Shown in pieces: positions 1-49,547 of a stretch of DNA of 49,547 nt. This DNA comes from a virus. The stretch lies in IMG/VR virus record IMGVR_UViG_3300025030_000025, positions 1 through 49,547 of that record; one strand, written 5' to 3'. Below the pieces are notes generated by a model that searched no databases, was not told the DNA's origin, and saw nothing but the letters and a program-made list of their open reading frames with translations. Position 1 is the first letter of the stretch, and each line of letters begins with the position of its first letter. The position numbers and the translations under genes are program-made.

Positions 1-127
1 AGTTATCTGCAACAATTTTAACTTCTTCTAAAGATGGTAAATTAGAAGTAGCTTTTTCTGCATCTGGAATTAATTTAGTATTACGTCCTTCTATAAATGC
101 TTGATTATCAGATAAGGTTTCTTTAAC
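1..127. repeat. Left copy of 127-bp terminal overlap
   Basis: These 127 bases are identical to 49421-49547. The reading frame of the large minus-strand gene is continuous across the join. A 127-bp identity is what a de Bruijn assembler with k=127 leaves on a circular contig, so I read it as an assembly overlap showing that the molecule is circular or circularly permuted, not as a true phage terminal repeat. Unique length is therefore about 49420 bp. Confidence 0.9.
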
Positions 128-7966: not shown

Positions 7967-7977
7967 TTAAATCTCCT

Positions 7978-8427: not shown

Positions 8428-8436
8428 AACAAACTC

Positions 8437-10383: not shown

Positions 10384-10401
10384 CTTTACCTCTTATAAAG
10401 T

Positions 10402-10421
10402 GGGGAGTGTTTCCACTCCCC
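10402..10421 (-). terminator. Perfect hairpin between decoration-like gene and coiled-coil gene
   Basis: On the minus strand an 8-bp perfect GC-rich stem (GGGGAGTG with CACTCCCC) closes a GAAA tetraloop, 9 bp after the stop of the 165-residue gene. It is followed only by ACTTTAT, not a full T-run. It is therefore a weak terminator, or a 3' stabiliser of the coat and decoration mRNA that lets part of the transcription through. Confidence 0.6.
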
Positions 10422-10429
10422 TGCTCAGT

Positions 10430-20757: not shown

Positions 20758-21237
20758 ATTCAAACTTTCATGCCTTATCCAGATTTTGTTAAATCAGCAC
20801 AATGCTTAGATAATAAGCGTTTAGGTAAACAACGTGTTGAATGTTTGCAGATACTTAAAGCATTAACCATACCAGATTATGGATGGAAGAATCATCCAAT
20901 AGTTAAGATGTGGAAGGGTTATGAAAGTTTATTATGTATTTATGGTATCAAAATGTCGGAAGAATGGATTAAACGTGGTTATAGAGACACAATGCTAAAT
21001 AGATATAATTCTCCATTAATTACGAATGAAGAAGTGATCGTTTTATCTAAGCATATTGAACCATATCCCGTTTTATATCCATTTTGGTTTGGCAACAAAT
21101 CATTCCATTTATCTCATCAATCCAATTTGTTGCGTAAAGATTATGCTCATTATTCAAAGTTTTTTATAGATGTACCTAATGATTTACCATATCAATGGTA
21201 TAATCCAGAAACTAAATTATTTTACACTACAAAATAA
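20758..21237 (+). CDS. MSMEG_6728-family DNA repair-like protein, 159 aa, ATT start
   Basis: Residues LDNKRLGKQRVECLQILKAL, GWKNHPIVKMWKGYE, EEWIKRGYRDT and SHQSNLLRKD match, from memory, the conserved features of the MSMEG_6728/pyrimidine-dimer-glycosylase-like family. Members usually begin with QTFxPYPDF. Here CAAACTTTCATGCCTTATCC encodes QTFMPYP, and an AAGGAG site lies 8 nt before ATT, so initiation at ATT is more likely than at the internal ATG at 20770. A role in repair of phage DNA is plausible; activity is not shown. Confidence 0.75.
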   Translation: MQTFMPYPDFVKSAQCLDNKRLGKQRVECLQILKALTIPDYGWKNHPIVKMWKGYESLLCIYGIKMSEEWIKRGYRDTMLNRYNSPLITNEEVIVLSKHIEPYPVLYPFWFGNKSFHLSHQSNLLRKDYAHYSKFFIDVPNDLPYQWYNPETKLFYTTK

Positions 21238-21519: not shown

Positions 21520-21786
21520 ATGGCAAAGAAAAGCACAAGCACTTTAACCAGTGCGAAGAAAACTGTAAAAAAGACTGAAAAAGTTGAAACTGTTTCAGTT
21601 AAATTACAATTACCTGGTCAACTTGCTGAAACAGCAAAGGTAAGACCAACTGTCGCAGAATTAATTGAAGACAGAAATCTTGCTAAGTATGAAGTTTCTG
21701 TTAATGGACAAAAAGTTGCAGCTGACTATAAGTTCGCTAAGAACGACATAGTTCGTGTTGGTATTCCAACTAAATCTGCTAACTAA
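21520..21786 (+). CDS. Ubiquitin-like beta-grasp protein, 88 aa
   Basis: After a lysine-rich flexible N-terminus (1-25), VSVKLQLPGQLAETAKV starts a ThiS/MoaD-like beta-grasp: a strand, a helix near TVAELIEDRN, then YEVSVNGQKVAADYKF and NDIVRVGIPTKS. The C-terminus is TKSAN, not GG. Together with the E1-like protein at 23459 and the JAMM protease at 24220 this fits a ubiquitin-like modifier set. The modifier may need trimming or another end chemistry. Fold assignment is by pattern, not by search. Confidence 0.7.
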   Translation: MAKKSTSTLTSAKKTVKKTEKVETVSVKLQLPGQLAETAKVRPTVAELIEDRNLAKYEVSVNGQKVAADYKFAKNDIVRVGIPTKSAN

Positions 21787-21799
21787 TTTCTGCAATTCA

Positions 21800-21834
21800 C
21801 GGAGATAATCAGTAAAATGGTTATCTCCCGTTTT
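21800..21834 (+). terminator. Weak terminator/attenuator after the Ubl gene
   Basis: GGAGATAA at 21801-21808 pairs with TTATCTCC at 21821-21828, followed by CG and TTTT. It lies between the Ubl and zinc-ribbon genes and could make more Ubl than downstream products. Confidence 0.55.
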
Positions 21835-21855
21835 ATATGCAAAACGGAGAGAGAA

Positions 21856-23457
21856 ATGAAAATTGAAACATTCCAATATGAAATTAAATTTCGTATTGTG
21901 ATGATTTTAAATCAGATAACGAAAGAATCTCCATCAGCAATTAGAAAAAATCTATCAAATATTTATGAATACGCATATTTATCAGATGCGAAATATTTGT
22001 TGATGGAAGGATTCACTAACTACGAATTATCGAATGAAATTTTTTATAAAGATGATGTAGCTTATATTGCCAACCATTCAGAAAAGTTAGTTATTGACGC
22101 TTATCTACTTGTTACTGGACGTGGAAGTGAAATTAAAGATGTGCGTAAATGGCTTGAAGATAGAGAACACATATTTAGAGATATTGATTATCGAGTGTCG
22201 CAGATAAGAAATACAGAATATGAAATTTATAAAAATATCCAGAAAATATCGTCTTATATTCCATTTAGTTGGGAATCAGCTATTAAAATAGCCAAACAAA
22301 TGAAAATTAAATGTTATCATAAAGATTCTGCTGCTGATACATTATCATTCGAACTTGGTAAAATTAAATGCGGTGATGATGAAGAAGGATATATCAATTA
22401 TCAGAATATAATCATCGAACTAAATAAAAAGATGAAGTTATGCAATATTATATACCATTTTAATAAATGGAAATATAATGTTCAATGGGGTTGGTTTGAA
22501 GATCGGCTACATCCTCATGTGGATAATACACATCTATGCGAAGGCAATAGACAAGAAGATATGATTATCTACCGGATGCAGTCTGACTGGGGATTTTTAT
22601 TATCAACTTATCGTGAATGTTTCGCAAGTTATGATTCAACATCAACTTATGCTAAAATTAAAGAAATTGCACCGATATTACGTGGCATGGCTAAAATAGC
22701 AGATGATATAGAATATCCAGAAGATATATCTGATTCGGATTTATCTTATAAAATATTCAAAAAAATGCAAGCGCAAAAGAGAAGATGCAGAACATGTGAT
22801 AATATATATTATGGAGAAGAATGTGATAGAGAAAATTGTATTGGAAATCCATTGACTAAAAAATTATGCGCACATTGTGATAGAGAAATGACTTGGAAAT
22901 CTCATTTACATCGAATAACTTGCGATAACTGTTACCATTGCCCACATTGCGAAGTTATTTCTCCTAATTCTACCGAGTGTTTAAATATTGCATGCAGTAA
23001 ATGCAAAAATTATGTAACAAGATGCGAATATTGTTATGGCATTAAATCTTATATTGGTGGACAATTATATTGTGATAATCCTAAATGCAAAAATCATAAA
23101 GATTATATTACCCCAATAGCACCAATCAGTGAATCTCCAGTATGCTTGATATGTCATAATAATAATTTAAGACAAAATGGTTCATTAGAATGGTGGTGTG
23201 ATAATGGGAATCATTCAATTAGCCAATATGATAAATACGGCGCACCAGTAGGACGTAATTATCATTATTTTAATTATTTGCGTGGTTTTCTGGGTGAAAT
23301 TCGTTTAGAACGGGTGCAGCAGATATCTGGATACGAAGGAGTCCCAATCCCAGTATATGGGGAGAATAATAAATTAATAGGTATCAAATGTGGAGAAGAA
23401 GTAATTGCATCAATAGAGTATATTGAAGAAGATAAACCAACAATAAACTGGAGATAA
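21856..23457 (+). CDS. Multi-zinc-ribbon protein in the Ubl operon, 533 aa
   Basis: Starts at ATG behind GGAGAGAGAA (MKIETFQYEIKF); the longer in-frame start at 21817 lies in the hairpin region. The N-terminal 300 residues are helical, with no motif known to me. Residues about 310-450 have at least four Cys sets: CRTCD/CDRENC, CAHCD/CDNCYHCPHC, CSKCK/CEYC and CLICH/CDNGNH. The order is zinc ribbons with Cys/His knuckles, and the C-terminus is beta-rich. Lying between Ubl and E1-like genes it may act as an E2/E3-like factor or target adaptor. That is inference; no RING is certain. Confidence 0.75.
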   Translation: MKIETFQYEIKFRIVMILNQITKESPSAIRKNLSNIYEYAYLSDAKYLLMEGFTNYELSNEIFYKDDVAYIANHSEKLVIDAYLLVTGRGSEIKDVRKWLEDREHIFRDIDYRVSQIRNTEYEIYKNIQKISSYIPFSWESAIKIAKQMKIKCYHKDSAADTLSFELGKIKCGDDEEGYINYQNIIIELNKKMKLCNIIYHFNKWKYNVQWGWFEDRLHPHVDNTHLCEGNRQEDMIIYRMQSDWGFLLSTYRECFASYDSTSTYAKIKEIAPILRGMAKIADDIEYPEDISDSDLSYKIFKKMQAQKRRCRTCDNIYYGEECDRENCIGNPLTKKLCAHCDREMTWKSHLHRITCDNCYHCPHCEVISPNSTECLNIACSKCKNYVTRCEYCYGIKSYIGGQLYCDNPKCKNHKDYITPIAPISESPVCLICHNNNLRQNGSLEWWCDNGNHSISQYDKYGAPVGRNYHYFNYLRGFLGEIRLERVQQISGYEGVPIPVYGENNKLIGIKCGEEVIASIEYIEEDKPTINWR

Positions 23458-23458
23458 A

Positions 23459-24220
23459 ATGAAAAAAATAATTGCTGACCATTGGCGTGGTCTTGATTTT
23501 TACTCACCTAAACTGGACAAAAATCCACATGTTATCATAGTCGGGTGTGGTGCTATTGGAAGTTATACTGCATTTGGCTTAGCACGTTTAGGTGTAAAGA
23601 AATTAACATTAATTGATTTTGATACAGTTGAAGGGCATAACTTACCAAATCAATTTTTTGCTGAATCATTAAATATACCAACTGGCATGTTTAAAGTGTC
23701 TGTTCTTGCTTCTACGATTAAGCTAATCGTACCATCAGTTGAAATAATTACTATCCCAATGAAGTTCGAACAAGTAGATGTAAAAACATTATATCCGGCT
23801 TCAGCTATTATTACTACTGTAGATTGTATGGAAGTTAGAAAAAATATCTATGCTTCAGTTAAAGATTCGGGTCTGCTATTGCTCGATGCTCGTATTGGTG
23901 GATTATTCGCTAACATATATGATATCCCGTTGTCAAATCCAAAAGCATCAGAATATTATAAATCCAGTCTTTATTCTAATGGTACTGTCCAAGCATTACC
24001 TTGTACTGGTCAAAGTGTTTGTGATGTTAGTATGACGGTAGCTGGTGAACTTGTAGGACGTTACAGAAATTTTGCTATGGGAAAACAATATCCTTCTTTC
24101 CACACGTTCCATGATTATAAAATTGGGCAAATGTGGATTCAAGAACTAAATCCAGATTTTAGCATCGAGGATAATCCTTTTACTACAGATGCAGAATCAT
24201 TAGCGAAAGTAGGCATGTAA
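23459..24220 (+). CDS. E1-like ThiF/MoeB-fold adenylyltransferase, 253 aa
   Basis: The nucleotide loop GCGAIG is at residues 29-34, followed by LIDFDTVEGHN (D53, D55). The R of the usual NLxRQ motif is replaced (NLPNQFF). K79 follows in GMFKV, and D122 lies in TTVDC. C182 in ALPCTGQSV is the best candidate catalytic cysteine, as in phage ThiF proteins with PCT motifs. Smaller than eukaryotic E1 and lacking an extra domain. Starts 1 bp after the previous stop behind GGAGAT. It would adenylate the Ubl C-terminus. Confidence 0.85.
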   Translation: MKKIIADHWRGLDFYSPKLDKNPHVIIVGCGAIGSYTAFGLARLGVKKLTLIDFDTVEGHNLPNQFFAESLNIPTGMFKVSVLASTIKLIVPSVEIITIPMKFEQVDVKTLYPASAIITTVDCMEVRKNIYASVKDSGLLLLDARIGGLFANIYDIPLSNPKASEYYKSSLYSNGTVQALPCTGQSVCDVSMTVAGELVGRYRNFAMGKQYPSFHTFHDYKIGQMWIQELNPDFSIEDNPFTTDAESLAKVGM

Positions 24221-25200
24221 TGACTAAAATACAAATGCCAATAGATGCTGGAGTTTTATTTGGTATGTACCAATATGCTGGCTATGCTAAACATTTCCAT
24301 AAATCTGAAATAGCTGGCTGGGCACATTATAGTCAAAATAGAGGCATCTACAAATTAGCACCATTAGTTGAACAAGAAATTACTGCAGCAACTGCCGATA
24401 CTTCAAGCGCATCAATTATTAATGATGTTGAATACGATATATCCGATATGATTGTACATTGGCATTCTCATGTTGATATGATGCCATCACCTTCTTCGAC
24501 TGATTTAGAGCAGATAAAAGATACGCTTGGATTGTTTCCTATGTTAATTTCCATTATAGTAAACTGTAAAAACCAGTATTCTGCAAGATTAGATGTTAAT
24601 TCTATTGGCAATAAAAAATGTTTTTATAAATTGCCTATCGCAGAAACTTATGAAGTTGAACTTGTGCCTTATTATAATGATAAGGTAGTAGCCAAAGAAA
24701 TACAGAAAAAACTAAAGAAACCGAAACAACCGCTTGTACCAGTAGCATATAAATATACTGGTGCCTATTATTACAATGGGCGTTCAGAAGATTTTGTTGG
24801 TGAATTATTTGATATAGTGGATTATATACCACCAACGGATAAAAAGGAAACCATTTCTTCAACAGTATCAGAAATAGAAAAAGAATTAAAACTGCAAGAC
24901 CAGTTTGATGCTCTTGCGGCATTGGACGAATTGGCAAAACTGAATGGAGTTATGAAAACTTATTTCCCTTCTGGAAATGAAAAAAGCATAAAAGGATTTT
25001 TGGTAACTGGTAAAACTGCACCTTACACTTTAGCAGTGAGATTCCTTAATGAAGTTAAAGGCGATAAAGCTATTATTTTCAGATTTAATGGAGAAGAAAT
25101 ATCACCATTAGAGGGTGTTGGAAAAGTAGCTTTAATGTTAAAACAATATAGAGATATAACAGAAAACGAATATGATAGAATTGTAACTTTATTAGGCTAA
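24220..25200 (+). CDS. JAMM/JAB metalloprotease with C-terminal extension, 326 aa
   Basis: The JAMM motif is intact: E30 in HKSEIAGWAHY, then H82 and H84 in HWHSHVDMMPSPSSTD, with S92 and D95 (HxH-x7-SxxD). Such enzymes cleave ubiquitin-like proteins from targets or trim their ends. Residues 200-326 form a charged helical extension with a possible second domain. The gene overlaps the E1-like gene by one base (TAATG), implying coupling. Possible roles are deconjugation or Ubl processing. Confidence 0.85.
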   Translation: MTKIQMPIDAGVLFGMYQYAGYAKHFHKSEIAGWAHYSQNRGIYKLAPLVEQEITAATADTSSASIINDVEYDISDMIVHWHSHVDMMPSPSSTDLEQIKDTLGLFPMLISIIVNCKNQYSARLDVNSIGNKKCFYKLPIAETYEVELVPYYNDKVVAKEIQKKLKKPKQPLVPVAYKYTGAYYYNGRSEDFVGELFDIVDYIPPTDKKETISSTVSEIEKELKLQDQFDALAALDELAKLNGVMKTYFPSGNEKSIKGFLVTGKTAPYTLAVRFLNEVKGDKAIIFRFNGEEISPLEGVGKVALMLKQYRDITENEYDRIVTLLG

Positions 25201-30305: not shown

Positions 30306-30659
30306 ATGCCTCTTGACAATAAGAATCTTACTCCAGAAATGCAAGAATTATTGATAGGATTACCTCTTGATGAAGAGTGCTGGAGAAAAAGTTATGAGTT
30401 ACCACATTTTACTAAGGTAACTATGTACGATACTAAATGTGTCAACTGCGGTTTCAAAAGATTGATGGTGGGTAATATGAAAATGGAGACTTTACCCGAA
30501 GCAATTAATGTTGCCCAAGCATTAGGTGAAGATTTGATACGTTCTTGTGAATATCCTGGAGATTTACAAATAGTAAATGGCAAAGAAGTATATCCAACAT
30601 TAACAGAAATAGTAATTAATGGTTGTAGATTTTGGGATGCTAAAAATATAGAGGATTAA
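30306..30659 (+). CDS. Hypothetical replication-block protein, 117 aa
   Basis: I start at the ATG at 30306 (MPLDNKNL), behind GGAGATTAAG; another ATG lies 12 nt upstream. CVNCGF gives a CxxC and further Cys lie at the end (SCEYPG, NGCRFW), so a zinc site is possible. It overlaps the helicase start by one base. Could be a helicase loader partner by position only. Confidence 0.55.
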   Translation: MPLDNKNLTPEMQELLIGLPLDEECWRKSYELPHFTKVTMYDTKCVNCGFKRLMVGNMKMETLPEAINVAQALGEDLIRSCEYPGDLQIVNGKEVYPTLTEIVINGCRFWDAKNIED

Positions 30660-32059
30660 TGGCGAAGCAATACCCCAATTCAGATTTGCTTGAAAGGGCA
30701 TACGTTGTATGGATGTTCCATAATAAAGAGTTAAGGAATAAACATTTAATGAGTACCTTACCAGGCATATTTCTTGACCCGAATAAAAGATTGCTTATGT
30801 TCATAATGCAGTCAATGAATGAAGCAGATGTAGAAATAACAATACCAAATATGACAATGTATTTACAATCTCAAAATGCTTCTATCACTGCATTTCATAA
30901 AAAACATAAAACAAAAACATTAAATGAGGAGCAAATAACTAATTTAGTCATGGATATGGAGATAACGAGTAAGACCGACTTATTCGATACAGCTTATTCT
31001 TATCTCCATACGTATGCTTTTGCTCGTTTTGTAGAAGATAGATTGGAGAATATGAAATATTGGAACTCATATCCAGGTGAATATAATGCTGCTATCATAG
31101 CATCTGCTAAAGCTATCCCTAAAATACATGACATATTAAAAGGTAAAACTGGTTCTCGTCAGAGCCAACTTGAAGAAACAATGCAGATGGTCAATTCAAC
31201 AGAAGAATATATATCTACATCATCTACTGAATTAAATCGTAATATTGGGGGGTTCACTCGTGGTTATGTAGCTACTTTGATAGCTAAGTCTGGACATGGT
31301 AAATCATCATGGACAGATTATAATGTAGTCCATACGTTACTCAAAAAGAAAATAGCTTCAGTAGTTATTATATCTCCAGAGGAATCTTCGATAACTCGAT
31401 GGCGTAGGATTATTGCAATGTTATGCGATATACCTACTACGCAAATGAGACAAAAATCAGCTCGTATTACTAAAGAGCATATTGACAGAGTAAGTGATTT
31501 ATTACAAGACAGATTGAAAATCTATGATAATGTTTTTAAATATAAAGATATAATAGATTTAATGCAATCAGTTAAATGTGATAAAATAGTATTAGACCAC
31601 ATGCAAGCAATAGAATATCCTGGTACTGGAGATTTTATGGCTCGTATGATAGGCAACATACCTGGATTAATAGACACAGAAAAGAAAATAGCTAAACAGA
31701 AGAATAATGTAATACTGAATTTATCACAAGTTAATGATAAAGATATACAGCGTTCTGATAGACTGATAAAAGCACCACGCTATTGGGATGCTTATGGTTC
31801 CTCAGTATTATATCAAGCATCAAGAGAATTTTTAGCTCTATGGTATCCGGTGAAAGATGAAGAAGAGGGCAGTATGGTAACTGGTAAATGGACGATTAAT
31901 GATATGATAATGAATGTAGAAAAAGCATCTTTTGGTGGTACTGGGAAAATTAATTTACACTTTGACCCAGATAAGAATACATTCACAGATAGAGCTAAAA
32001 CTAAAAATGTTAAATATGATTATGAACCAGCAAAAGAAAAAGGACTATTCGGTGTATAA
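30659..32059 (+). CDS. DnaB-like replicative helicase, 466 aa
   Basis: Walker A is at residues 209-217 (AKSGHGKSS) and the Walker B-like stretch near 300 reads KIVLDHMQAIEY. The N-terminal 150 residues are helical, as in DnaB. RecA-type core motifs follow in order, with SQVNDKD near residue 358 and a C-terminal YDYEPAKEKGLFGV. It unwinds DNA ahead of the fork. The gene ends in GGTGTATAA, and its stop codon is also the left end of the cassette array (see attC0). Confidence 0.85.
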   Translation: MAKQYPNSDLLERAYVVWMFHNKELRNKHLMSTLPGIFLDPNKRLLMFIMQSMNEADVEITIPNMTMYLQSQNASITAFHKKHKTKTLNEEQITNLVMDMEITSKTDLFDTAYSYLHTYAFARFVEDRLENMKYWNSYPGEYNAAIIASAKAIPKIHDILKGKTGSRQSQLEETMQMVNSTEEYISTSSTELNRNIGGFTRGYVATLIAKSGHGKSSWTDYNVVHTLLKKKIASVVIISPEESSITRWRRIIAMLCDIPTTQMRQKSARITKEHIDRVSDLLQDRLKIYDNVFKYKDIIDLMQSVKCDKIVLDHMQAIEYPGTGDFMARMIGNIPGLIDTEKKIAKQKNNVILNLSQVNDKDIQRSDRLIKAPRYWDAYGSSVLYQASREFLALWYPVKDEEEGSMVTGKWTINDMIMNVEKASFGGTGKINLHFDPDKNTFTDRAKTKNVKYDYEPAKEKGLFGV

Positions 32060-32219
32060 TGATGTGGAAACTAAAGCGTGAGCGACAATGGAAACAATTT
32101 TAATAATTATAACAGTATTGGTATTTGCAAGACTGATTTTATACCCAGAATTAATCACTTGGTATTATGACAGGGAGGAAAAGCGATGATAGCGAATCGC
32201 TTTGAGTTTTTAGTTATAA
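32054..32219. repeat. attC0
   Basis: Left core GTATAAT is the end of the helicase gene with C changed to T. 2L AAACTAAAGCG (32066 on) pairs with 2R CGCTTTGAGTTT, with unpaired T and G on the 2R arm. Right core GTTATAA at 32213. The loop holds a 33-residue ORF. Confidence 0.65.
32088..32189 (+). CDS. 33-aa membrane peptide in attC0 loop
   Basis: METILIIITVLVFARLILYP and a charged tail (YYDREEKR). One hydrophobic helix of a length to span the membrane. It lies wholly in the loop of attC0, just after the helicase gene, with GAGCGACA upstream instead of a clear ribosome binding site. Like the other tiny membrane peptides here, function is unknown. Confidence 0.4.
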   Translation: METILIIITVLVFARLILYPELITWYYDREEKR

Positions 32220-32243
32220 TTTTTTTGGCAGAAGGAGAATAAA

Positions 32244-32402
32244 ATGAAAAAATATGAAGGGATTATTCAGTTTGTTGTATTGACAGTAAAAGTTACTGCA
32301 AAGAATAAAACAGAAGCAAAAAAGAAAATTAAAAAAGTATTGAGCGAAAAGATTGCATCTAAATTAATTGATAAACAGAACTTCTTTATTGAAAAATGTT
32401 AG
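32244..32402 (+). CDS. Cassette 1 ORF, 52 aa
   Basis: MKKYEGIIQFVVLTVKVTAKNK: a beta strand, then a basic helix and a C-terminal Cys. A strong GAAGGAG site precedes ATG. Unlike cassettes 2-11 it starts after the 1R core, so no attC-coded extension is added. The cassette ends pair: GTTATAATTTTTTTGGC at 32213 with 32402-32422. No family known. Confidence 0.6.
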   Translation: MKKYEGIIQFVVLTVKVTAKNKTEAKKKIKKVLSEKIASKLIDKQNFFIEKC

Positions 32403-32415
32403 CCAAAAAAAACAA

Positions 32416-32604
32416 TTATAACAGCGCGGCGCATAAGCAGTTGCGGTAACAACAATTTAACAAAATAGGAGATAAATATTATGGGATATGCCGAAGAACA
32501 AATTAAAGACTATATGGATAATTTAGACCAAAATTATGCCGAACATTACGAAAAAGAAAACTTGCCAGAAGATGAAAGCAATCTGCTTGATGCGCAAGTT
32601 ATAA
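32416..32604. repeat. attC1
   Basis: Left core TTATAAC at 32416, 2L AGCGCGGCGCATAAGCAG, 2R CTGCTTGATGCGC with T and G unpaired, right core GTTATAA at 32598. The long loop contains AGGAG and the ATG of the next ORF. Confidence 0.8.
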
Positions 32605-32861
32605 AGTTGCTTGCGGACAGGCATATAAATATTATTGAATTAAAACATCTTATGAATAAAGTTAAGCGTGTTAAAATAAAAGATGACCTTGAACGAATAC
32701 TAATAAAAGATTTGGGCGAAAGTTACGACAGAATTGAAGATAAAAATTTTATAAACAAATATGCTGGTAAAATAGCGAACATTTATGAGTGGTGCGGGGA
32801 TTGGTGGATATTAGAAGATGACAATTATATTATTACAGAAAATTGCTTTGCGAAAATTTAG
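32481..32861 (+). CDS. Cassette 2 ORF, 126 aa
   Basis: ATG lies in the attC1 loop behind AGGAGATAAATATT. The first 39 residues (acidic, ending QVIKLL at the 1R core) are coded by attC DNA; the rest is alpha/beta with WCGDWWILEDDNYII near the end. The 1R core is in frame (GTT = Val). The ends pair: GTTATAAAGTTGCTTGC at 32598 with 32861-32878, one base different in length. Function unknown. Confidence 0.65.
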   Translation: MGYAEEQIKDYMDNLDQNYAEHYEKENLPEDESNLLDAQVIKLLADRHINIIELKHLMNKVKRVKIKDDLERILIKDLGESYDRIEDKNFINKYAGKIANIYEWCGDWWILEDDNYIITENCFAKI

Positions 32862-32871
32862 CAAGCAATCT

Positions 32872-33004
32872 TTATAACAGAGTGGCTGGTAACTTGCCGA
32901 GCGTAAATTTTATAAATAAAAATAAGGATTAAGAACTATGAGTGAAGAAAAAACCCAAATTGACCGAGCGAGTAGCGAGGTCAATGTTGACCAGCAAGTT
33001 AGGC
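32872..33004. repeat. attC2
   Basis: Left core TTATAAC; 2L GCTGGTAACTTG pairs with 2R CAATGTTGACCAGC with T and G unpaired; right core GTTAGGC at 32998. The loop holds a GACCGAGCGAG/CGAGGTC hairpin motif and the next ATG. Confidence 0.8.
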
Positions 33005-33270
33005 GGAAATTTCTTCCGGGTGATTGGATAAGTATGTTCTATGGATTTGACAGAGAAATATTTTATGTGCTGAAATATAATTCCGAAACCGGGATCGTTA
33101 TTATTGGTAATCCGAAATGGTGCGTAAGCGATTCTAAAACGATAGGGATAGAAGAACTACTTAGTAGAAAAGCAAAATATGTTTGTAGCACACGGCGGAA
33201 CATTTTGAGATATATATTTTTCCCGGTGAGGAATTTGATATGCCCGTTTTATAAACCATTTTCCGCCTAA
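32938..33270 (+). CDS. Cassette 3 ORF, 110 aa
   Basis: ATG in the attC2 loop. The first 20 residues (MSEEKTQIDRASSEVNVDQQ) come from attC; the core begins VRRKFLPGDWISMFYGF, a beta-barrel-like opening with PGDW. The stop TAA is part of the GCCTAAC core at 33265. The ends pair over 12 bases (GTTAGGCGGAAA with TTTCCGCCTAAC). No named family. Confidence 0.65.
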   Translation: MSEEKTQIDRASSEVNVDQQVRRKFLPGDWISMFYGFDREIFYVLKYNSETGIVIIGNPKWCVSDSKTIGIEELLSRKAKYVCSTRRNILRYIFFPVRNLICPFYKPFSA

Positions 33271-33457
33271 CGGTGCGGTTTTTAACAAGCCGCGACAAAA
33301 CAAAATAAGGAATTAGAGTTATGAAACCAGAAATTTTATTAGCAACACAAAGAGCAATGGAAGAATATTATTCCGATCCTCAATTGATGAACGACATGAC
33401 GGTTGAACAACATATAGCTGATTGTATTAGCGGTCTTGTTGAAAAACTTAGTTATGC
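33265..33457. repeat. attC3
   Basis: Left core GCCTAAC; 2L GGTTTTTAACAAGCCGC pairs with 2R GCGGTCTTGTTGAAAAAC with T and G unpaired; right core GTTATGC at 33451. Confidence 0.8.
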
Positions 33458-33653
33458 AAGCCCAGCTTCATCGGGCGTCCAAAACGGCGGACAATATATA
33501 CCTAACTTGAAAAATATTTGGCAAGTAAGACAGATAAAATGCGGTAATGATAATATAACAATGATAGTGGACACCACAACACCTAATGATGAAATTTGGT
33601 TTGTTGATGCAGATGGACATACACAAAAATTTAAGATGACCCAAACACCATAG
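33321..33653 (+). CDS. Cassette 4 ORF, 110 aa
   Basis: ATG in the attC3 loop behind AAGGAATTAGAGTT. About the first 43 residues precede the 1R core, which is in another frame here (TAT). The core has NIWQVRQIKCGNDNITMIVD, beta-rich. The cassette ends pair with an extra 20-nt stem-loop (AGCCC ... GGGCG) inserted beside 1R. Function unknown. Confidence 0.6.
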   Translation: MKPEILLATQRAMEEYYSDPQLMNDMTVEQHIADCISGLVEKLSYASPASSGVQNGGQYIPNLKNIWQVRQIKCGNDNITMIVDTTTPNDEIWFVDADGHTQKFKMTQTP

Positions 33654-33663
33654 CCGTTTTGGT

Positions 33664-33868
33664 GTATAACGGATCAGCGACAACCCGCCGAGCGGGAATG
33701 TAAACTAAAATAGGAATTGAGAAATGAACGAAGGAATATTAAAATTTATTTGTGCGATTACTGGACATGACGAAGTAACAATTAAACAAATGTTCAACGA
33801 TTGGTTAAAATCCCCTTCATCAAAGACCGACCGAGCAAGTGAGGACGGAGTTGGTTGCGTAGTTAGTT
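33664..33868. repeat. attC4
   Basis: Left core GTATAAC; 2L GCGACAACCCGCC pairs with 2R GGACGGAGTTGGTTGCG, with A and G unpaired and G-T pairs; right core GTTAGTT at 33862. The loop holds GACCGAGCAAGTGAGG. Confidence 0.7.
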
Positions 33869-34047
33869 TGCCGAGCAAAGGAAATAAGTGTTGCGAACTT
33901 TGTAAACATTGTAAGGTTGATAATGATATTACTTCTGCATCAAGAGGCGATCACCTTTGTTTTAACAGCAAATCTGATTGCTACTATTTAGGCGAGTTAA
34001 GAAATATAAAGTCTTTTTATTGTTCTGAATTTGCGAGGTCAAACTAA
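33724..34047 (+). CDS. Cassette 5 ORF, Cys-rich, 107 aa
   Basis: ATG in the attC4 loop. The first 46 residues come from attC, then VSLPSKGNKCCELCKHCKVD starts a Cys-rich domain with CCELCKHC, C near LCFNSKSDC and YCSEF, likely zinc binding. The stop TAA lies in AACTAAC. It resembles cassette 9 in Cys spacing (CxxC early, CC..C later). The shared layout suggests related cassettes. Function unknown. Confidence 0.65.
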   Translation: MNEGILKFICAITGHDEVTIKQMFNDWLKSPSSKTDRASEDGVGCVVSLPSKGNKCCELCKHCKVDNDITSASRGDHLCFNSKSDCYYLGELRNIKSFYCSEFARSN

Positions 34048-34243
34048 CGTAGTTGCGTTTGTGCCGTTGCGGAAACATTTTATAAAACTAAATAGGAGTA
34101 GAAAATGGATATTGGAATTTTATTTGCCAAATACTGCGATGTGAAAGATTTACAAGAACCACATCAAAACGCATTGAGCCAAGATGCTTTAGTGAAATTA
34201 ATTGAAGAATATGAAAGCAATCGGCACGAAACGCGAGTTAGCC
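34042..34243. repeat. attC5
   Basis: Left core AACTAAC; 2L GTAGTTGCGTTTGTGCCGTTG pairs with 2R CAATCGGCACGAAACGC with T and G unpaired six bases apart; right core GTTAGCC at 34237. The clearest of the set. Confidence 0.85.
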
Positions 34244-34473
34244 AGAAAAATGCACCAGGGGGTGGGACACAATTATATTTTATCAGTTATAGTTTCTGGC
34301 AATATACTTATGACGATAGCAAACTTGAAGGGGACACAGTGGAAGGTTTTGAGAATACCGTTGAAGATTGCCATATAGAACGATTTGAGGACGTTGAAGC
34401 GTTAGAAGATAAATTGAGAAAACGGTTAGGATATGACGGACTGACCATAATTAATTACATTAAAATTAACTAA
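34105..34473 (+). CDS. Cassette 6 ORF, 122 aa
   Basis: ATG in the attC5 loop behind AGGAGTAGAAA. The first 44 residues are attC-coded; the core begins VSQKNAPGGGTQLYFISYSF and goes on with WQYTYDDSKLEGD, alpha/beta and acidic. The cassette ends pair (GTTAGCCAGAAAAATGC with 34474-34491). The 1R core is in frame. Function unknown. Confidence 0.65.
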   Translation: MDIGILFAKYCDVKDLQEPHQNALSQDALVKLIEEYESNRHETRVSQKNAPGGGTQLYFISYSFWQYTYDDSKLEGDTVEGFENTVEDCHIERFEDVEALEDKLRKRLGYDGLTIINYIKIN

Positions 34474-34484
34474 GCATTTTTTCG

Positions 34485-34617
34485 GGCTAACGAAGTTGCC
34501 ACTAAACTGCAAACGGACATAAAAGGAAGAACTATTATGGAAAATAATTCAGAGACTACTAATAAAACTCAAATTGCAACAAACGAAAGTTTGTCAGATT
34601 TGAGTGGCTTGTTAGCT
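34485..34617. repeat. attC6
   Basis: Left core GGCTAAC; 2L GCCACTAAACTGCAAAC pairs with 2R GTTTGTCAGATTTGAGTGGC with T, A and G unpaired; right core GTTAGCT at 34611. Confidence 0.8.
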
Positions 34618-34908
34618 GGCGACCGTATTTGGTTTGATGAAGAAAAAAGACCATATACGATTAAAGCAGCGAACAAGCGATTTAAGGTTTGCACAAAACC
34701 ATACAACATTAAACACACTGTAATTTATACAATCGTTGACTTGGACAGACAGATTAGAGGAACTGAAAACTTAGTTTTTTGTATGGGGTTTGAGAACATA
34801 AAGTTATGCAAAGAAGCATTAAAAAGATTAGAGAATGGCGAAAGCGAAGTGAGCAGTAGGAATAATATCCCATTAAAAATATCTAAAACGGAAAGGTCGT
34901 CCAGCTAA
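34537..34908 (+). CDS. Cassette 7 ORF, widespread small family, 123 aa
   Basis: The core after 1R reads AGDRIWFDEEKRPYTIKAAN, CTKPYNIKHTVIYTIVDLD and RGTENLVFCMGF, which resembles a small uncharacterised family I remember from phages and other mobile DNA. Such proteins normally begin near GDRIWF, so the first 24 residues (MENNSETTNKTQIATNESLS...) are an extension coded by the attC loop. The ends pair (GTTAGCTGGCGACC with GGTCGTCCAGCTAAC). The stop TAA lies in AGCTAAC. Confidence 0.7.
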   Translation: MENNSETTNKTQIATNESLSDLSGLLAGDRIWFDEEKRPYTIKAANKRFKVCTKPYNIKHTVIYTIVDLDRQIRGTENLVFCMGFENIKLCKEALKRLENGESEVSSRNNIPLKISKTERSSS

Positions 34909-35095
34909 CGGTGTGGCGTTTCACCGGATTGCGAAAACAAAAAAAATATAAGAAGGAAAATAAAATGGGAAATGTGAATAAAATTTTAGTTGATATAATA
35001 AATAACATTGACAAATACGAGAAGCCATTTATAGCAGAACAATTATTTGTCGTCGTGAGAGAACTCAGCAATTCCGGTGCAAACGTATGTTATAG
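34903..35095. repeat. attC7
   Basis: Left core AGCTAAC; 2L GTGGCGTTTCACCGGATTGC pairs with 2R GCAATTCCGGTGCAAACG with T and C unpaired; right core GTTATAG at 35089. Confidence 0.8.
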
Positions 35096-35354
35096 CGAGG
35101 GCGCAGTTCAGCCCGGTGCGGTTGCGGAAGAGAAGTTAATTTTTGATTGGAAAGAGGGCGAGTTGATAAGCGGAGACCCATTATTTTATTTGGATGATTG
35201 TCATGGAGTATCGGTGGACAATTATGTTGACCACATAGATATTAAATTTTATCAACGCATAAAAGAGAATGGGAAAACTTATTGCCGGGTTACAAAAAAA
35301 CATACTCTTGATGTAGCCAAATTAGCAGAGGCACTTAAACTTTTAGAAGAATGA
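34965..35354 (+). CDS. Cassette 8 ORF, 129 aa
   Basis: I start at the ATG at 34965 (MGNVNKILVD), behind AGAAGGAAAATAAA; an in-frame ATG at 34911 lies inside the 2L arm. About 42 residues precede 1R. The core EEKLIFDWKEGELISGDPLF is followed by a beta-rich domain and a helical end (LDVAKLAEALKLLEE). The ends pair (GTTATAGCGA with TCGCTATAAC). Function unknown. Confidence 0.65.
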   Translation: MGNVNKILVDIINNIDKYEKPFIAEQLFVVVRELSNSGANVCYSEGAVQPGAVAEEKLIFDWKEGELISGDPLFYLDDCHGVSVDNYVDHIDIKFYQRIKENGKTYCRVTKKHTLDVAKLAEALKLLEE

Positions 35355-35368
35355 CAGCAACCGCATCG

Positions 35369-35622
35369 CTATAACGAAGCTCCGGCTTACCCGCCGAGCG
35401 ACATTAAAAACTAAAATAGGAATTGGAAAATGAACGCACAAAAAATAGTTGATCATGCAATAAAGAAAGGTTACTTGGTTGAGTGCTGCGGTGGATGTGG
35501 CAAAACATATAAAGCGGATTACGATTGTGGTTGCCCCGCTGGTTCAAGTTATAAATGGAATCCAAATTTGATTTTTTTGCCGACCGAGCAAGCGAGGTCG
35601 GTTGTAGAGCCGGAAGTTAAAC
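35369..35622. repeat. attC8
   Basis: Left core CTATAAC; 2L CTCCGGCTTACCC pairs with 2R GGTTGTAGAGCCGG with extra unpaired bases, including a G; right core GTTAAAC at 35616. The loop holds a GACCGAGCAAGCGAGGTC stem. Confidence 0.7.
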
Positions 35623-35807
35623 CGACTTGCGTAAATTGTTTCTATGCAACCACTATAAAGAATGATGACGTAATTTCTTCTATATGCCATTGTCAGATAA
35701 GTCCTATTTGTTGGATGCAAGAAAAAGAAATTAAATACGGAATACCTATTACCAGAATGCGAGAATGCGATGGATGCAATCATTTTAAGAAAGCAAGTTC
35801 GGTTTAA
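35430..35807 (+). CDS. Cassette 9 ORF, Cys-rich, 125 aa
   Basis: The attC-coded part itself has CCGGCGKTY and CGCPAG, so this N-terminal zinc-ribbon-like piece spans the loop. After 1R, VKPTCVNCFYATTIKND, CHCQISPICWM and MRECDGCNHF give a second Cys-rich domain, like cassette 5. The stop TAA is in GTTTAAC. The ends pair (GTTAAACCGACTTGC with 35793-35808, one base longer). Probably two zinc sites; function unknown. Confidence 0.65.
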   Translation: MNAQKIVDHAIKKGYLVECCGGCGKTYKADYDCGCPAGSSYKWNPNLIFLPTEQARSVVEPEVKPTCVNCFYATTIKNDDVISSICHCQISPICWMQEKEIKYGIPITRMRECDGCNHFKKASSV

Positions 35808-36000
35808 CATATAGCGGGCTAACTTGTCTGCGGAAAGGATATTATGAGTTTTGCAATACATAAAAAACTTGGCACAATAAAAGAAATACCAAAACACGCA
35901 GAGGGATGGATGAATAACGAATGGGCTGTATATGACAAATTTCCCACAGAAGAAAATTATTTTGAGGCAATAGCAGGTCAAGTTGAGCCCGTAGTTATTG
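35802..36000. repeat. attC9
   Basis: Left core GTTTAAC; 2L CGGGCTAACTTGTCTG pairs with 2R CAGGTCAAGTTGAGCCCG with T and G unpaired six bases apart; right core GTTATTG at 35994. Confidence 0.8.
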
Positions 36001-36179
36001 TGAAAACGGCGGGGAGGACATTATTAGACTACGCAAAATCGTGGGCTCAAAGATATAATAAGGATGGTAAAGAAAAGGAAGAATTAAAGATAAGTTTTGT
36101 AATAATAGCTAAACATCTATTCGCTTTAACCGATAAAGAATTATTAAGGTTAAAACACAATAGCCGTTTTTCAGAATAA
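35844..36179 (+). CDS. Cassette 10 ORF, 111 aa
   Basis: ATG behind GAAAGGATATT in the attC9 loop. The first 50 residues contain AEGWMNNEWAVYDKFPTEEN; after 1R the core VIVKTAGRTLLDYAKSWAQR is a helical region. The stop TAA is in GAATAAC. The ends pair (GTTATTGTGAAAACGG with 36164-36180, one mismatch and one bulge). Function unknown. Confidence 0.65.
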   Translation: MSFAIHKKLGTIKEIPKHAEGWMNNEWAVYDKFPTEENYFEAIAGQVEPVVIVKTAGRTLLDYAKSWAQRYNKDGKEKEELKISFVIIAKHLFALTDKELLRLKHNSRFSE

Positions 36180-36426
36180 CAGAGTGGCGGTTGTGCTTTT
36201 GCGGAACAGTTTTATAATAACAAATAGAGGTTTAACATGACACACGAAGATTTTGAAGAAATACTTAATTGTAGCGAATGTAGCACTGCTTTAACTGATA
36301 ATGATTGGAGCGAAACTTATTCGGTTCCTCTTTCAATGACAATTAAAGAGATAAAGAGTTTGAGCCAAACATTAAAAACACATGAAACGTTGCTTAACAG
36401 CAACAAGCACGAACCGCAAGTTAAAC
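36174..36426. repeat. attC10
   Basis: Left core GAATAAC; 2L GGCGGTTGTGCTTTTGC pairs with 2R GCAACAAGCACGAACCGC with C and G unpaired six bases apart; right core GTTAAAC at 36420. Confidence 0.8.
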
Positions 36427-36617
36427 GGATTTTGGCGGATGTGGAGAACCAAAAAACAATATTGAAACTATTTAGTTGCCAATGTGGCGAAACTTTACTG
36501 ATAGGCAAACCACATACTAAAATTGTTAATAACCATAATGAACTTGATTACCTTGAATGTAAATGCCCCGATTGCGAGATGGGGTGGAAAGTAAAAATAA
36601 GTTTTACGGAAATATAA
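36237..36617 (+). CDS. Cassette 11 ORF, zinc-ribbon, 126 aa
   Basis: ATG in the attC10 loop. The N-terminal 61 residues include CSECSTALTDND; after 1R (VKRILADVENQK) the C-terminus has CQCGETLLIGK and CKCPDCEMGWK, so a split zinc ribbon is likely. The ends pair over 17-18 bases (36420-36436 with 36618-36635). It is the last cassette, and the array stops at GTTTAAC. Function unknown. Confidence 0.65.
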   Translation: MTHEDFEEILNCSECSTALTDNDWSETYSVPLSMTIKEIKSLSQTLKTHETLLNSNKHEPQVKRILADVENQKTILKLFSCQCGETLLIGKPHTKIVNNHNELDYLECKCPDCEMGWKVKISFTEI

Positions 36618-36671
36618 GCCAAAATTCCGTTTAACTATCTACTAAGAGGCTATTAAGCCTAAGTTGTTTAT

Positions 36672-37401: not shown

Positions 37402-37636
37402 AAAAGACCCAACCAAAATGATGTTAGTAGCATTATCAGAAGAAGATTATGATACTATGAAGATTTTATGGGATAAAGGAATATTATTTGGTGCATATTC
37501 TTTCCAACATCTTAATAAGATGGAATCTAATAATCCTAATTGGGATAAATATAAAACACTCATAGAAAAATTTCCTTCTGCTAAAGGCATATTACATGTG
37601 AATATAGTAACTGGTTTCGCTAAAGGTGTCCAATGA
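37382..37636 (+). CDS. Hypothetical protein, 84 aa
   Basis: Alpha/beta protein with LSEEDYDTMKILWDKGILFG and no Cys set. Another in-frame ATG at 37370 is possible. It overlaps the methyltransferase start by 4 bp (ATGA). Function unknown. Confidence 0.5.
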   Translation: MLHLISKKDPTKMMLVALSEEDYDTMKILWDKGILFGAYSFQHLNKMESNNPNWDKYKTLIEKFPSAKGILHVNIVTGFAKGVQ

Positions 37637-38322
37637 AATTATACTATAAGGAAGAAGGGATAAGAGTATATAATGGCGATTGCAAAAATATGTTTAAAAA
37701 TTTGCCAGATAAATCTATTAGACTAATATTCGCAGACCCACCTTATGGGATTAATTTAGAATACGATTCTCCATTTATAGACACTCCAGAATATTATTTG
37801 GATATGACCAATTTATTATTGACCGAAGGATTACGAGTAGCTGAAACAATGGTAATAACACCTGGTGGTTATACTAATGTTGAAATTTGGAAACAAATAT
37901 GTAGAGAGAAAAAGATAGACTGGTTTAGATTTTGTTGGTATAAAGGTGCTATGCCGCATAGAAGTAAGGTTGGATTCGCACATTGGGAAGAAGTTCTTAT
38001 ATTTGGGAAGATGTATGCTGGAATCCCCGATTATCTATATATTGCGCCGGAGGGGAATAAACAAGGTCATGCTTGTCCTAAACCAGTAGGGTTACCAATG
38101 TTTTTTATAGATGCATATACTAAGGAAAATGATTTAGTATATGACCCATTCTTAGGTAGCGGTACGACATTAATAGCATGTAAAATGAACAATAGAAAGG
38201 GGATAGGCACGGAATTATCGCTAACATATTCAGAAATATGCGCTAAACGTATATCTGAAACTATGAGATTTGGTAAAGATAATGATGAAATTTTTAATCA
38301 AACAGATTTATTTAGGAGTTAA
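37633..38322 (+). CDS. DNA methyltransferase, beta-class layout, 229 aa
   Basis: DPPY is at residues 35-38 (FADPPYGINLEY) and the AdoMet loop DPFLGSGTTL lies near 171-180, with NNRKGIGTELS after it. The DPPY motif comes before the FxGxG motif, the beta-class order of N4-cytosine or N6-adenine methylases. It could protect phage DNA from host enzymes. No restriction gene is near. Confidence 0.85.
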   Translation: MKLYYKEEGIRVYNGDCKNMFKNLPDKSIRLIFADPPYGINLEYDSPFIDTPEYYLDMTNLLLTEGLRVAETMVITPGGYTNVEIWKQICREKKIDWFRFCWYKGAMPHRSKVGFAHWEEVLIFGKMYAGIPDYLYIAPEGNKQGHACPKPVGLPMFFIDAYTKENDLVYDPFLGSGTTLIACKMNNRKGIGTELSLTYSEICAKRISETMRFGKDNDEIFNQTDLFRS

Positions 38323-46520: not shown

Positions 46521-49500
46521 TCATTTACCTAAATATTTATTCCTAATGGATTGCTCTCTTTGATTTTGTATTTGTTTAATAATATATGAAGGACTTTTCT
46601 TTTTAGCTATTTCTAATTGTATCTCTGCTACTTTTAATTCACCTCTTAAAGATACATCACCATCCATTACTAATTTTTTCAAATCATTAACTTCTTTCTG
46701 TAACTCTCTTATTTCTATTATATCTTCATCTATTTCCTCTTTAACTAAAGGTTTAATAACAGTAGGTGCTAATCTCTTTAATGTACCAATAGCCTTAGAT
46801 TCACCTTTTTTACCATAATCAGAATCTTGTTCATATACGCTACCAGAACCTGCTTCTGATAAAGCTATTGATAATTCAGTTACAGTTTGTGCGGCTGGTA
46901 TTAAATTTTGTGTTTGTCTTGCCCAATATTCACCCTTCATAAATCCATAAGCATTACTTAAAGCATCTGATAAAAACTTCTTAGTATCATCTGGTAACTC
47001 ATTCAGTATCAACACAGCAGAACCTAATGTAGTTATTTCTTTTAATGATGCTTTAAGATTAGCTTTATCTTTCATAGTAATATTGTTCTTACCCTTCCAA
47101 ACACTTTCTACTAATCTACCAGCAGATATAATCTTCTGTACTTTACTTTCTAATACTGCAGGAACCCATAATCTAAACTTCATTGCTGATTTACCTAATG
47201 TAGTTCTTACTATGCTTGGACGCATACCTCTATGATAACCACCTTGAGCTGCAGCCTTACCTTCAAGTATTTGTCTATCTCGTGATGCACTAATAATCTT
47301 AGTTCTAAATTCTTCTGGTGTAAGTTTACCTAAATAAAACTGTCCTTGTATGATTTGTTCACCAGCAGAATAGAACTGATAAGGTGATGCTACTGCCTTA
47401 GCTAAATCCGTTCCACTTCTTTTCATATCCTTAGCAGTTAAAGTCTTATCTAATAAAGGTACATCTACTATACCACGTTCAGTTAATATATCAAATCCTT
47501 GCCCAGTACCTAATCTTTTAGTACCTATTGCAAGTTCTTTAGCTGTTATATCTTTACTTGTAACATTCTGTAATACACCACCTATCAAGTTACCTAAACC
47601 ACCAGTAGGATTATATGAAAGGTATCTAATACTTGCTACATTATTCAATATATTCATTGCAGTTTTAAATTGTTTATTACCTTGCATACCCGTATTAAAA
47701 TCTTCACCAAATAATTCTTTCAGATAATTCTTAGACCAAGTTGTATTATTAATTAATCCAGCATTATACATTGCAGTTTCTAATCTTCTAACAATAGGGA
47801 CTACAGGTTCTAAATGTTTTTGTAATGTGAATATATCTATGTAACCTTCTAATCTCTGCAGTATATCCATCGTTGGATTTTCAGTTCTACCGAAACGTGT
47901 TAAACTGTTAGGGTCAAACATCTTATCTGAACCAAAATTATTAACCATATTATTAACTTCTTCTGGGTCAGCTTTCTTCATCTTCTCTTTCAATGCATCC
48001 AATAAACCAGACTTTCTGTATGCTTCAACTAAACCTCTTGGTTTATGTGGTAAATCATAATTACTTTTAATCTTCTCTTTAAACTGTTTAGCTTCATTAA
48101 TAAAGTCTTTCAGTACACCTACAAATTTTTCTTCAGCAGAAGTTAAAGTAACCTTCTCACCAGATAATGCTTTGATAATATTATCATCATATCTACTACC
48201 AGTTGACCTTCTTGATTCTTCGGCTAATGTAGTAAAATTATTAGTTAGTTTAATCTTCTCTATTTCAGCAGTTCTACCAGCTTCAAAATATGTTTGATAT
48301 ATAGCTTTTAATATAGGCACTTCTTCAACTACTTGGAATGGTATTCTAACATTATTAATTACACTGGACTTTAATCCACCTTGTGATTGTTTCTTTAGAT
48401 TCTTATATTCAATTAGTTCATCAGTATTTAATATCTTTCTACCAGTTTTAGATTCTTGTATCTTCTTATTATGCAATTCTTCAAATCTATTCTGTTGTTC
48501 TGGTGAATCAAACATAGTCTGCTTAACTGCTTTATTAAAATCTTCTTGTGATGCTTTCTTATTGATCATCTCTCTAATATTAGCAGTAGCATTCTCTACC
48601 ATTAATTCTCTACCAGCACGTGTAAACTTACTTGGTATAATATTCTTTTCAGAAGCATACTTTAATAAATCTTGTCCAAACTGGTTTCTATCATCTTTAG
48701 CTAAACCTTGTGTCTGTAACCATACTCTTTGTAGATGTGGTTGTATAGCATCGCCATATAACTTACTCATTTGTGCAGACCAATCTTTAAAATCACGAGT
48801 ACCTTCATATACTAATCTTGCACCTTGTGAAAGTACATTCTTAATAGTTTCAGTATTCTCTGTGAAATTAGATTTCATATTCTTTAATGAAAAATCTGCT
48901 GGTAATAATGTAGCACCAAAAGTAGTTTCTTCTGGTGCGGCATCAGTAGGTTTGACTTCTTCTACTGGTTTTATTTCTTCCTTTTTATTCAACGACTTCC
49001 AGTTACCTTGTTCATCTAATACAGATATACGTCCTTCTGCGAATGCTTTGCTAACTTCACCAGCACCTAATTGTTCTACAGCTTTATCCCAAGATTGTTT
49101 ATGATTAATAGCCTCTGGTGCTGAATAAACCTTATCATCAATCTTAATAGATTTCTGTGCAATATTTATTGGTTTATCGTTTAATTCGGTAGATGCTTCT
49201 TTGATAATATCAGTAGTATTAAGTTTAGTCTCAGTTGGAATTTCTTCCCCGAAAACGGACGAATTAGAGGGCTTAGGTTGTTCGGTTATACTTGAACCAA
49301 TACTTTCTATTGGCTTAGGGACTATCTCTTTACCTTGAAGCTCTGTGGAAGAAATCGGGCTATTATTAGGCTTTATCTCGGTAGTAACTTTCCCGCTTTT
49401 TATAGCTTGCCCTAAATTTGAGTTATCTGCAACAATTTTAACTTCTTCTAAAGATGGTAAATTAGAAGTAGCTTTTTCTGCATCTGGAATTAATTTAGTA

Positions 49501-49547
49501 TTACGTCCTTCTATAAATGCTTGATTATCAGATAAGGTTTCTTTAAC
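46521..49547 (-). CDS. Giant internal virion/ejection-like protein, C-terminal part
   Basis: Continues from 1-1150 across the circle; bases 49421-49547 repeat 1-127. There is no stop from 49547 to 46521, so the annotated start is the ATG at 1150. This part begins with a Pro/Ser/Thr-rich linker (49200-49420), contains the dispersed repeat at 49240, then is mainly helical. A Gly-rich LSYNPTGGLGNLIGGV stretch near residue 985 may be a membrane-active or channel segment. The C-terminus is a charged coiled coil ending in RNKYLGK. Fits a DNA-ejection protein. Confidence 0.85.
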   Translation of the reverse strand, partial: VKETLSDNQAFIEGRNTKLIPDAEKATSNLPSLEEVKIVADNSNLGQAIKSGKVTTEIKPNNSPISSTELQGKEIVPKPIESIGSSITEQPKPSNSSVFGEEIPTETKLNTTDIIKEASTELNDKPINIAQKSIKIDDKVYSAPEAINHKQSWDKAVEQLGAGEVSKAFAEGRISVLDEQGNWKSLNKKEEIKPVEEVKPTDAAPEETTFGATLLPADFSLKNMKSNFTENTETIKNVLSQGARLVYEGTRDFKDWSAQMSKLYGDAIQPHLQRVWLQTQGLAKDDRNQFGQDLLKYASEKNIIPSKFTRAGRELMVENATANIREMINKKASQEDFNKAVKQTMFDSPEQQNRFEELHNKKIQESKTGRKILNTDELIEYKNLKKQSQGGLKSSVINNVRIPFQVVEEVPILKAIYQTYFEAGRTAEIEKIKLTNNFTTLAEESRRSTGSRYDDNIIKALSGEKVTLTSAEEKFVGVLKDFINEAKQFKEKIKSNYDLPHKPRGLVEAYRKSGLLDALKEKMKKADPEEVNNMVNNFGSDKMFDPNSLTRFGRTENPTMDILQRLEGYIDIFTLQKHLEPVVPIVRRLETAMYNAGLINNTTWSKNYLKELFGEDFNTGMQGNKQFKTAMNILNNVASIRYLSYNPTGGLGNLIGGVLQNVTSKDITAKELAIGTKRLGTGQGFDILTERGIVDVPLLDKTLTAKDMKRSGTDLAKAVASPYQFYSAGEQIIQGQFYLGKLTPEEFRTKIISASRDRQILEGKAAAQGGYHRGMRPSIVRTTLGKSAMKFRLWVPAVLESKVQKIISAGRLVESVWKGKNNITMKDKANLKASLKEITTLGSAVLILNELPDDTKKFLSDALSNAYGFMKGEYWARQTQNLIPAAQTVTELSIALSEAGSGSVYEQDSDYGKKGESKAIGTLKRLAPTVIKPLVKEEIDEDIIEIRELQKEVNDLKKLVMDGDVSLRGELKVAEIQLEIAKKKSPSYIIKQIQNQREQSIRNKYLGK
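49240..49357. repeat. Dispersed repeat, copy in coding linker
   Basis: ATTTCTTCCCCGAAAACGG at 49240-49258 is identical to 39025-39043. CCTTGAAGCTCTGTGGAAGA at 49333 matches the second module of that copy in most positions. In this copy it encodes part of a Ser/Pro-rich linker of the giant protein. Confidence 0.5.
49421..49547. repeat. Right copy of 127-bp terminal overlap
   Basis: Exact copy of 1-127. It should be removed once when the molecule is closed. Confidence 0.9.

Follow-up and report, generated by a model that had tools for sequence, protein, structure and literature searches.

Clusters of attC sites lacking an integron integrase (CALINs) are already known from phages: 17 of them, some in virulent phages, have been described together with tests of IntI1 activity (Qi 2023, PMC9892861). 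Tetrasphaera phage TJE1, Polaribacter phage P12002L, and Pseudoalteromonas phage PH101 carry attC clusters without an integrase (PMC9892861), as does the DNA analyzed here, a viral stretch of 49,547 nucleotides (IMG/VR record IMGVR_UViG_3300025030_000025, positions 1 to 49,547; below, the window). Positions 32060 to 36634 of the window hold an array of 11 integron-type cassettes. We consider it likely that this array is a CALIN lying in the replication operon of the phage, with the attC sites antisense to the genes, and presumably filled and rearranged by integron integrases of the hosts.

The array contains ten clear attC sites, each bounded by a TAAC/GTTA pair (Table 1), and a degenerate eleventh (about 32055 to 32219), whose first core, TATAAT, follows the helicase stop codon; the attC spans are 120 to 250 nt long. 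It encodes 11 cassette open reading frames (ORFs) and a 33-amino-acid ORF within the first loop. Read along the plus strand, the end of an ORF, at or near xxxTAAC, is followed by a six-base unpaired spacer and the first arm, which is richer in G/C. Next come a stretch rich in A/T, containing a Shine-Dalgarno (SD)-like motif and an ATG, and 20 to 62 leader codons, and then the second arm, two bases, and an in-ORF GTTAxxx, from which the core extends up to its own xxxTAAC. Since the arms of the site pair with each other and the xxx ends of the core do so as well, a single-stranded circular cassette would fold into one long stem closed by two loops, one containing the leader and one the core gene. 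On the right, the array closes with TAAC at 36632 to 36635, and no attC arms are present beyond 36635. Two of the sites, attC4 and attC8, are 76% identical over 78 nt; attC4 has the weakest L stem (4 of 12 pairs, fixed register).

The repeat architecture was compared with chance in several ways. In an unbiased scan of the 49.5-kb window for TAAC..GTTA stems, the eight best scores all fell within the array. With a fixed template, six sites scored at least 26, while 30 resampled windows never exceeded 22. A second template, based only on the canonical geometry (two extrahelical bases, the first 8 nt before GTT and the second 6 nt further in), gave scores of 38.5 to 42 for five array sites and 32.5 for a sixth, against 26 at most in 60 resampled windows; one site elsewhere in the window scored 30, and the minus strand gave none. 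Across the sites of the window and of a related phage (G004, described below), 144 of 180 L-arm pairs were Watson-Crick (permuted mean, 77; maximum, 113; 20,000 permutations), and most of the 12 columns stay paired through three or four pair types. The two ends of the same cassette also pair with each other, the mean score being 15 versus 2.95 for other combinations, and none of 50,000 permutations was as good. Taken together, the stem scans and the permutations of arms and ends exclude a chance origin.

The sites also have the geometry of integron attC sites. The core triplets are present at all 15 sites tested, as TAAC (CAAC once) and GTTA (GTTG once). The outer extrahelical base usually lies 8 nt before GTT and is G in 13 of the 15 sites and C in the other two; in ten sites, two extrahelical bases stand 6 nt apart (T-N6-G in seven, T-N6-C in two, and C-N6-G in one). 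The bottom strand of the aadA1 site of plasmid R100 shows the same geometry. T-N6-G is the extrahelical pair of easily excised attC sites, and the recombining (bottom) strand is the one with the protruding G (PMC3518468). A second inverted repeat (L''/L') is present as well, set off from R by an asymmetric unpaired spacer. A further regularity is found in the cassette-end stems. Nine of the 16 (window 32213 to 36635, G004 137 to 2722) carry a single bulged base (T, or twice C) that precedes TAAC by exactly 5 nt, and no other position on the TAAC side has one. The R box of canonical attC sites comprises 7 bp, and we know of no counterpart of this bulge in them. No Rfam family matched.

A CALIN is defined by at least two attC sites with no neighboring integron integrase, and the array has 10 or 11 sites in a genome devoid of PF00589. 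Neither this complete genome nor the relatives examined encode a tyrosine or serine recombinase (PF00589, PF00239), and no attI site was identified, so that the array is not a complete integron, which would comprise both an intI gene and attI. The original prediction had placed an attC-like array lacking an integrase, with eleven sites between eleven ORFs, at 32054 to 36635. The array is real and lies at that location, both counts stand (one of the sites being degenerate), and the analysis confirmed the paired L arms, the extrahelical bases confined to one strand, and the lack of an integrase, with attC geometry far above background and on one strand only. The right end had to be corrected to 36634/36635, and the 3' arms of attC, instead of falling between ORFs, turned out to be part of them. 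The predicted pairing of each cassette's own ends holds overall, the cassette at 33451 having a poorly matched left end.

The direction of the genes relative to the attC sites is reversed, which the original prediction had overlooked, together with the start codons and leaders inside the attC loops. The T-N6-G-N8-GTT signature occurs on the gene-sense strand only, both in the window, whose plus strand is thus the predicted recombining strand, and in G004. In the controls (R100 aadA1, phage TJE1, and two bacterial integrons; loci L014, L021, L054, and L064), the template fired opposite the genes, as expected; in P12002L, the only site found was too ambiguous in its bulge for a polarity call and was not used as evidence. 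The placement of the signature in the window and G004 thus indicates that both phages have their genes antisense to attC; neither shows the usual arrangement, with the signature opposite the gene. That arrangement is a usual, not a defining, property of cassettes. The boundaries agree with the polarity: read on the minus strand, the array begins with G/TTA (36635) and closes with an attC flush against the helicase stop codon, while a plus-strand reading gives an orphan attC first and a last cassette without attC. From polarity and boundaries, we conclude that the cassettes are ordinary in their order, with genes antisense to attC. It follows that the region upstream of each gene is its own attC, and hence that the ribosome-binding site, the start codon, and the leader lie within the attC loop.

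The leaders have no stop among 593 codons, with stops at 9.4% of the codons in the other two frames. Of the 13 leader starts open to checking, 12 are preceded by an SD-like motif. The cores appear to be whole native genes that start at the recombination site, as judged from sequence comparisons. The core of ORF7 matches Gordonia phage proteins (gp57) at 52 to 54%, as well as PHROG 14402, and when a viral relative (L107) is aligned with this core, at 64%, its native Met falls on the GTTA site. Similarly, the core of a methyltransferase gene in G004 begins at the recombination site, its GTG coming directly after GTTAT. In a structure model of ORF7, the leader is disordered and the core folded, with a confidence of about 70 to 80; the fold gave no convincing match in the PDB. 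As to function, the cassette ORFs had no Pfam match above the cutoff and a single PHROG match, to a PHROG without known function. The first cassette of each phage departs from this scheme, since its loop holds a complete small ORF instead of a leader and the second ORF starts in the core. These first-loop ORFs encode 33 amino acids, membrane-like, in the window (32088 to 32189) and 57 amino acids in G004 (374 to 547), and the first cassettes of the two phages share their arms and differ in both loops.

These features suggest how the array might work. The CALIN would have been inserted at the helicase stop codon, within the operon of replication genes, and each cassette would consist of an attC of 120 to 250 nt, carrying the ribosome-binding site, start codon, and leader, followed by the core gene. 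Translation would start in the attC loop and run through the 3' arm of attC and the core site into the core gene, so the product made would be a leader-core fusion, and expression would be driven by the phage transcript. Cassettes may enter through the action of a host IntI on folded single strands during infection. Such transfer by a host integrase is plausible; in laboratory tests, IntI1 acts on attC sites of virulent phages (PMC9892861), which makes host integrase action the natural explanation.

Several observations weigh against this reading. Five sites (attC2, attC4, attC6, attC8, and g3) deviate from the standard geometry. The 7-bp consensus RYYYAAC/GTTRRRY is complete at only a few sites (e.g., GTTAGGC and GTTAAAC), most of them reading GTTANNN. 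Up to the outer extrahelical base, the spacer measures 12 nt on one arm versus 8 nt on the other, unlike the near-symmetric class 1 site, and recognition by a given IntI is therefore not assured. No empty or rearranged array site was seen, the two assemblies covering the array being identical. Neither a host nor a matching bacterial integron was found with a genome-wide attC-loop pattern (0 hits), and an integrase-based genome scan returned 80 loci, mostly from Proteobacteria, without a donor; these loci were of use only as polarity controls.

Evidence for turnover comes from the relatives. The same species occurs as fragments in three other metagenome assemblies (99.98 to 100% identity). Only one of these (G003) includes the array, starting at 32319, and its array sequence is 100% identical. 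One end of the G003 contig (1 to 681) leaves the phage within cassette 1 and enters an opposite-strand bacterial seryl-tRNA synthetase-like gene; this end is probably an assembly chimera. The more distant G004, whose terminase matches that of the window at 58% (tblastn; 61% over the alignment), carries an array of the same architecture at one contig end, but its cassettes, the methyltransferase among them, are all different. The region of the core site of cassette 1 matches G004 over 47 nt (89%). A related phage with the same repeat architecture and other ORFs, which the original prediction had proposed to look for, thus exists. Cassette turnover is evident only at the distance between the window and G004, and no exchange was seen within the species. 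The original idea of a CALIN in a phage therefore held, while the movement of cassettes by host integrases is at most plausible, given the identical array, the lack of an empty or rearranged site, and the lack of a host. Helicase relatives were not found in viral contigs, the array DNA matched no phage record, and viral attC-pattern searches retrieved only the same two phages or chance matches without arrays. Four terminase relatives (L005 and L015 to L017) have no array in the sequence examined.

The same data bear on the possibility that the array is a dead CALIN, an old capture whose cassettes are now fixed phage genes and whose sites no longer recombine. The absence of an integrase, the same array in two assemblies, and the degenerate sites (the first attC, attC4, and attC8) would fit this; against it, most stems are near perfect, the ends are cassette specific, and the extrahelical bases are conserved, despite arms lying in coding sequence, and the G004 cassettes are entirely different. 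We regard such a relic as possible, if somewhat doubtful. More doubtful still, in our view, is a separate integron lineage, unseen in bacteria and characterized by antisense cassettes, a start codon and leader in the attC loop, and phage carriers. If it did exist, recombination at attC within ORFs could, where in phase, build new leader-core fusion proteins.

Fusions would also arise if the cassettes were normally oriented and the attC located 3' of a gene supplied the start and leader to the next gene, exchange then creating the new combinations. The core genes do begin exactly at GTTA, nearly as in normal cassettes, and GTTA is in phase 0 at 7 of 10 sites in the window. Such an arrangement is nevertheless improbable, as the polarity of the extrahelical bases is opposite, the first attC of the array would be an orphan and the last cassette would lack an attC, and the phase 1 and 2 sites (ORFs 4, 7, and 8) would lose frame upon exchange. 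Moreover, the related attC4 and attC8 precede the small Cys-rich ORFs 5 and 9, as if attC traveled with the downstream gene. A different recombinase system using bulged hairpins, either Xer/pdif modules or an HUH/IS605-like element, could be suspected from the alternation of site-like junctions of opposite polarity along the array and from the extra bulge of the end stems. We find it very unlikely, because the arm sequences differ between sites while Xer arms are conserved, the AAC/GTT cores with T-N6-G-N8 match integron attC, and the genome lacks a serine or tyrosine recombinase. Finally, the array could be read as a series of ordinary small phage genes whose inverted repeats or terminators are incidental, since hypothetical small ORFs are common in phage replication regions. 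This reading is already refuted by the scan and permutation statistics, the covariation through three or four pair types at most columns, and the position-specific bulges.

The genome surrounding the CALIN is that of a phage. The first 25 nt of the window recur at 49421 and its last 20 nt at 108, and owing to this 127-bp terminal overlap the window represents a complete genome, about 49,420 bp in length. Its genes include those for a terminase, a portal protein, an ERF recombinase, and a DnaB-like replicative helicase, whose stop codon adjoins the left end of the array. A short way 3' of the array, an N6_N4 DNA methyltransferase gene (37633 to 38322) is present, and a pyrimidine-dimer glycosylase gene lies at 20770 to 21237; neither is flanked by attC. 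Elsewhere on the plus strand (21520 to 25200), four neighboring genes encode proteins of 88 and 546 amino acids, the latter with no Pfam or PHROG match, a ThiF/E1-like protein, and a JAB-domain protein. Together they resemble a phage-encoded set for ubiquitin-like conjugation and deconjugation.

Table 1. Positions of the cassettes and of other features in the window
Feature	Position	Strand	attC (TAAC - GTTA)	ORF	Remark
Cassette 1	32060..32421	+	degenerate first attC	32088-32189 (33 aa, in loop); 32244-32402	Ends GTTA 32213 / TAAC 32419 pair
Cassette 2	32422..32877	+	attC1 (32419 - 32598)	32481-32861	T-N6-G extrahelical bases
Cassette 3	32878..33270	+	attC2 (32875 - 32998)	32938-33270	
Cassette 4	33271..33669	+	attC3 (33268 - 33451)	33321-33653	Cassette ends pair poorly
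Cassette 5	33670..34047	+	attC4 (33667 - 33862)	33724-34047	Small Cys-rich core
Cassette 6	34048..34490	+	attC5 (34045 - 34237)	34105-34473	Best-scoring site of the window
Cassette 7	34491..34908	+	attC6 (34488 - 34611)	34537-34908 (ORF7)	
Cassette 8	34909..35374	+	attC7 (34906 - 35089)	34965-35354	
Cassette 9	35375..35807	+	attC8 (35372 - 35616)	35430-35807	Small Cys-rich core
Cassette 10	35808..36179	+	attC9 (35805 - 35994)	35844-36179	Arms common to a G004 site
Cassette 11	36180..36634	+	attC10 (36177 - 36420)	36237-36617	Flush end at TAA/C
Whole array in attC polarity (canonical-order CALIN)	32060..36634	-			Start G/TTA at 36635; genes antisense
DnaB-like replicative helicase	30659..32059	+			PF03796, 8e-14; PHROG primase/helicase
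Direct terminal overlap	1..127 with 49421-49547				End-sequence recurrence

Compared with the phage CALINs described previously (PMC9892861), which also have DNA methyltransferases among their cassettes, as G004 does, the present array is large, with 11 cassettes versus few sites (three in TJE1), and it differs from them in the start codons and leaders contained within its 120- to 250-nt attC spans. In TJE1, the genes and attC sites have the normal relative direction, while in the window and in G004 it is reversed. With canonical cassettes (class 1 aadA1 and Vibrio type), the array shares the AAC/GTT cores, the R and L arms, T-N6-G, and complementary ends; it differs in the direction of the genes, which is opposite relative to the recombining strand, in the end stems of 9 to 18 nt with an extra bulge, and in the asymmetric spacer. 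Unusual orientation relations are also known from Treponema integrons, with attC sites of 63 to 132 bp, but there it is the integrase gene that is flipped, so that intI and the cassette genes run in the same direction (PMC3607928). A recombination site bearing an SD sequence and a start codon that aid translation of a cassette is exemplified by ORF-11 and ORF-18 of attI1 (PMC8876359); attI1, however, is one site serving the first cassette only, while in the window almost every attC does so, with an in-frame fusion to the core. Virus Rctr41k (KX853513) is likewise a phage with integron-like cassettes including a methyltransferase, as in G004. Unlike the window, it encodes a relative of IntI, 45% identical to IntI1, and the orientation of its attC-like sites looks normal, the start codons following GTT. 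The integrase and the attC-like sites of Rctr41k lie at 4680 to 10842 of its record, and the text of the 2023 survey, from which partial genomes were excluded, does not mention this virus (PMC9892861).

In the literature examined, we found no description of an entire array in which the genes are reversed and attC encodes in-frame leaders, the bacterial arrays surveyed being mostly from Proteobacteria. In the usual view, integrons rely on a promoter from outside, and the polarity of attC sets the direction of the genes. A reversed array with starts in attC would be another route to expression-ready cassettes, and it makes cassette direction a trait to be tested, not a given. As two related phages have the same architecture and no cassettes in common, phages are plausible long-term carriers that renew their cassette sets. 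The 2023 report (PMC9892861), with its few sites in each genome, is thereby extended to a large array located among replication genes.

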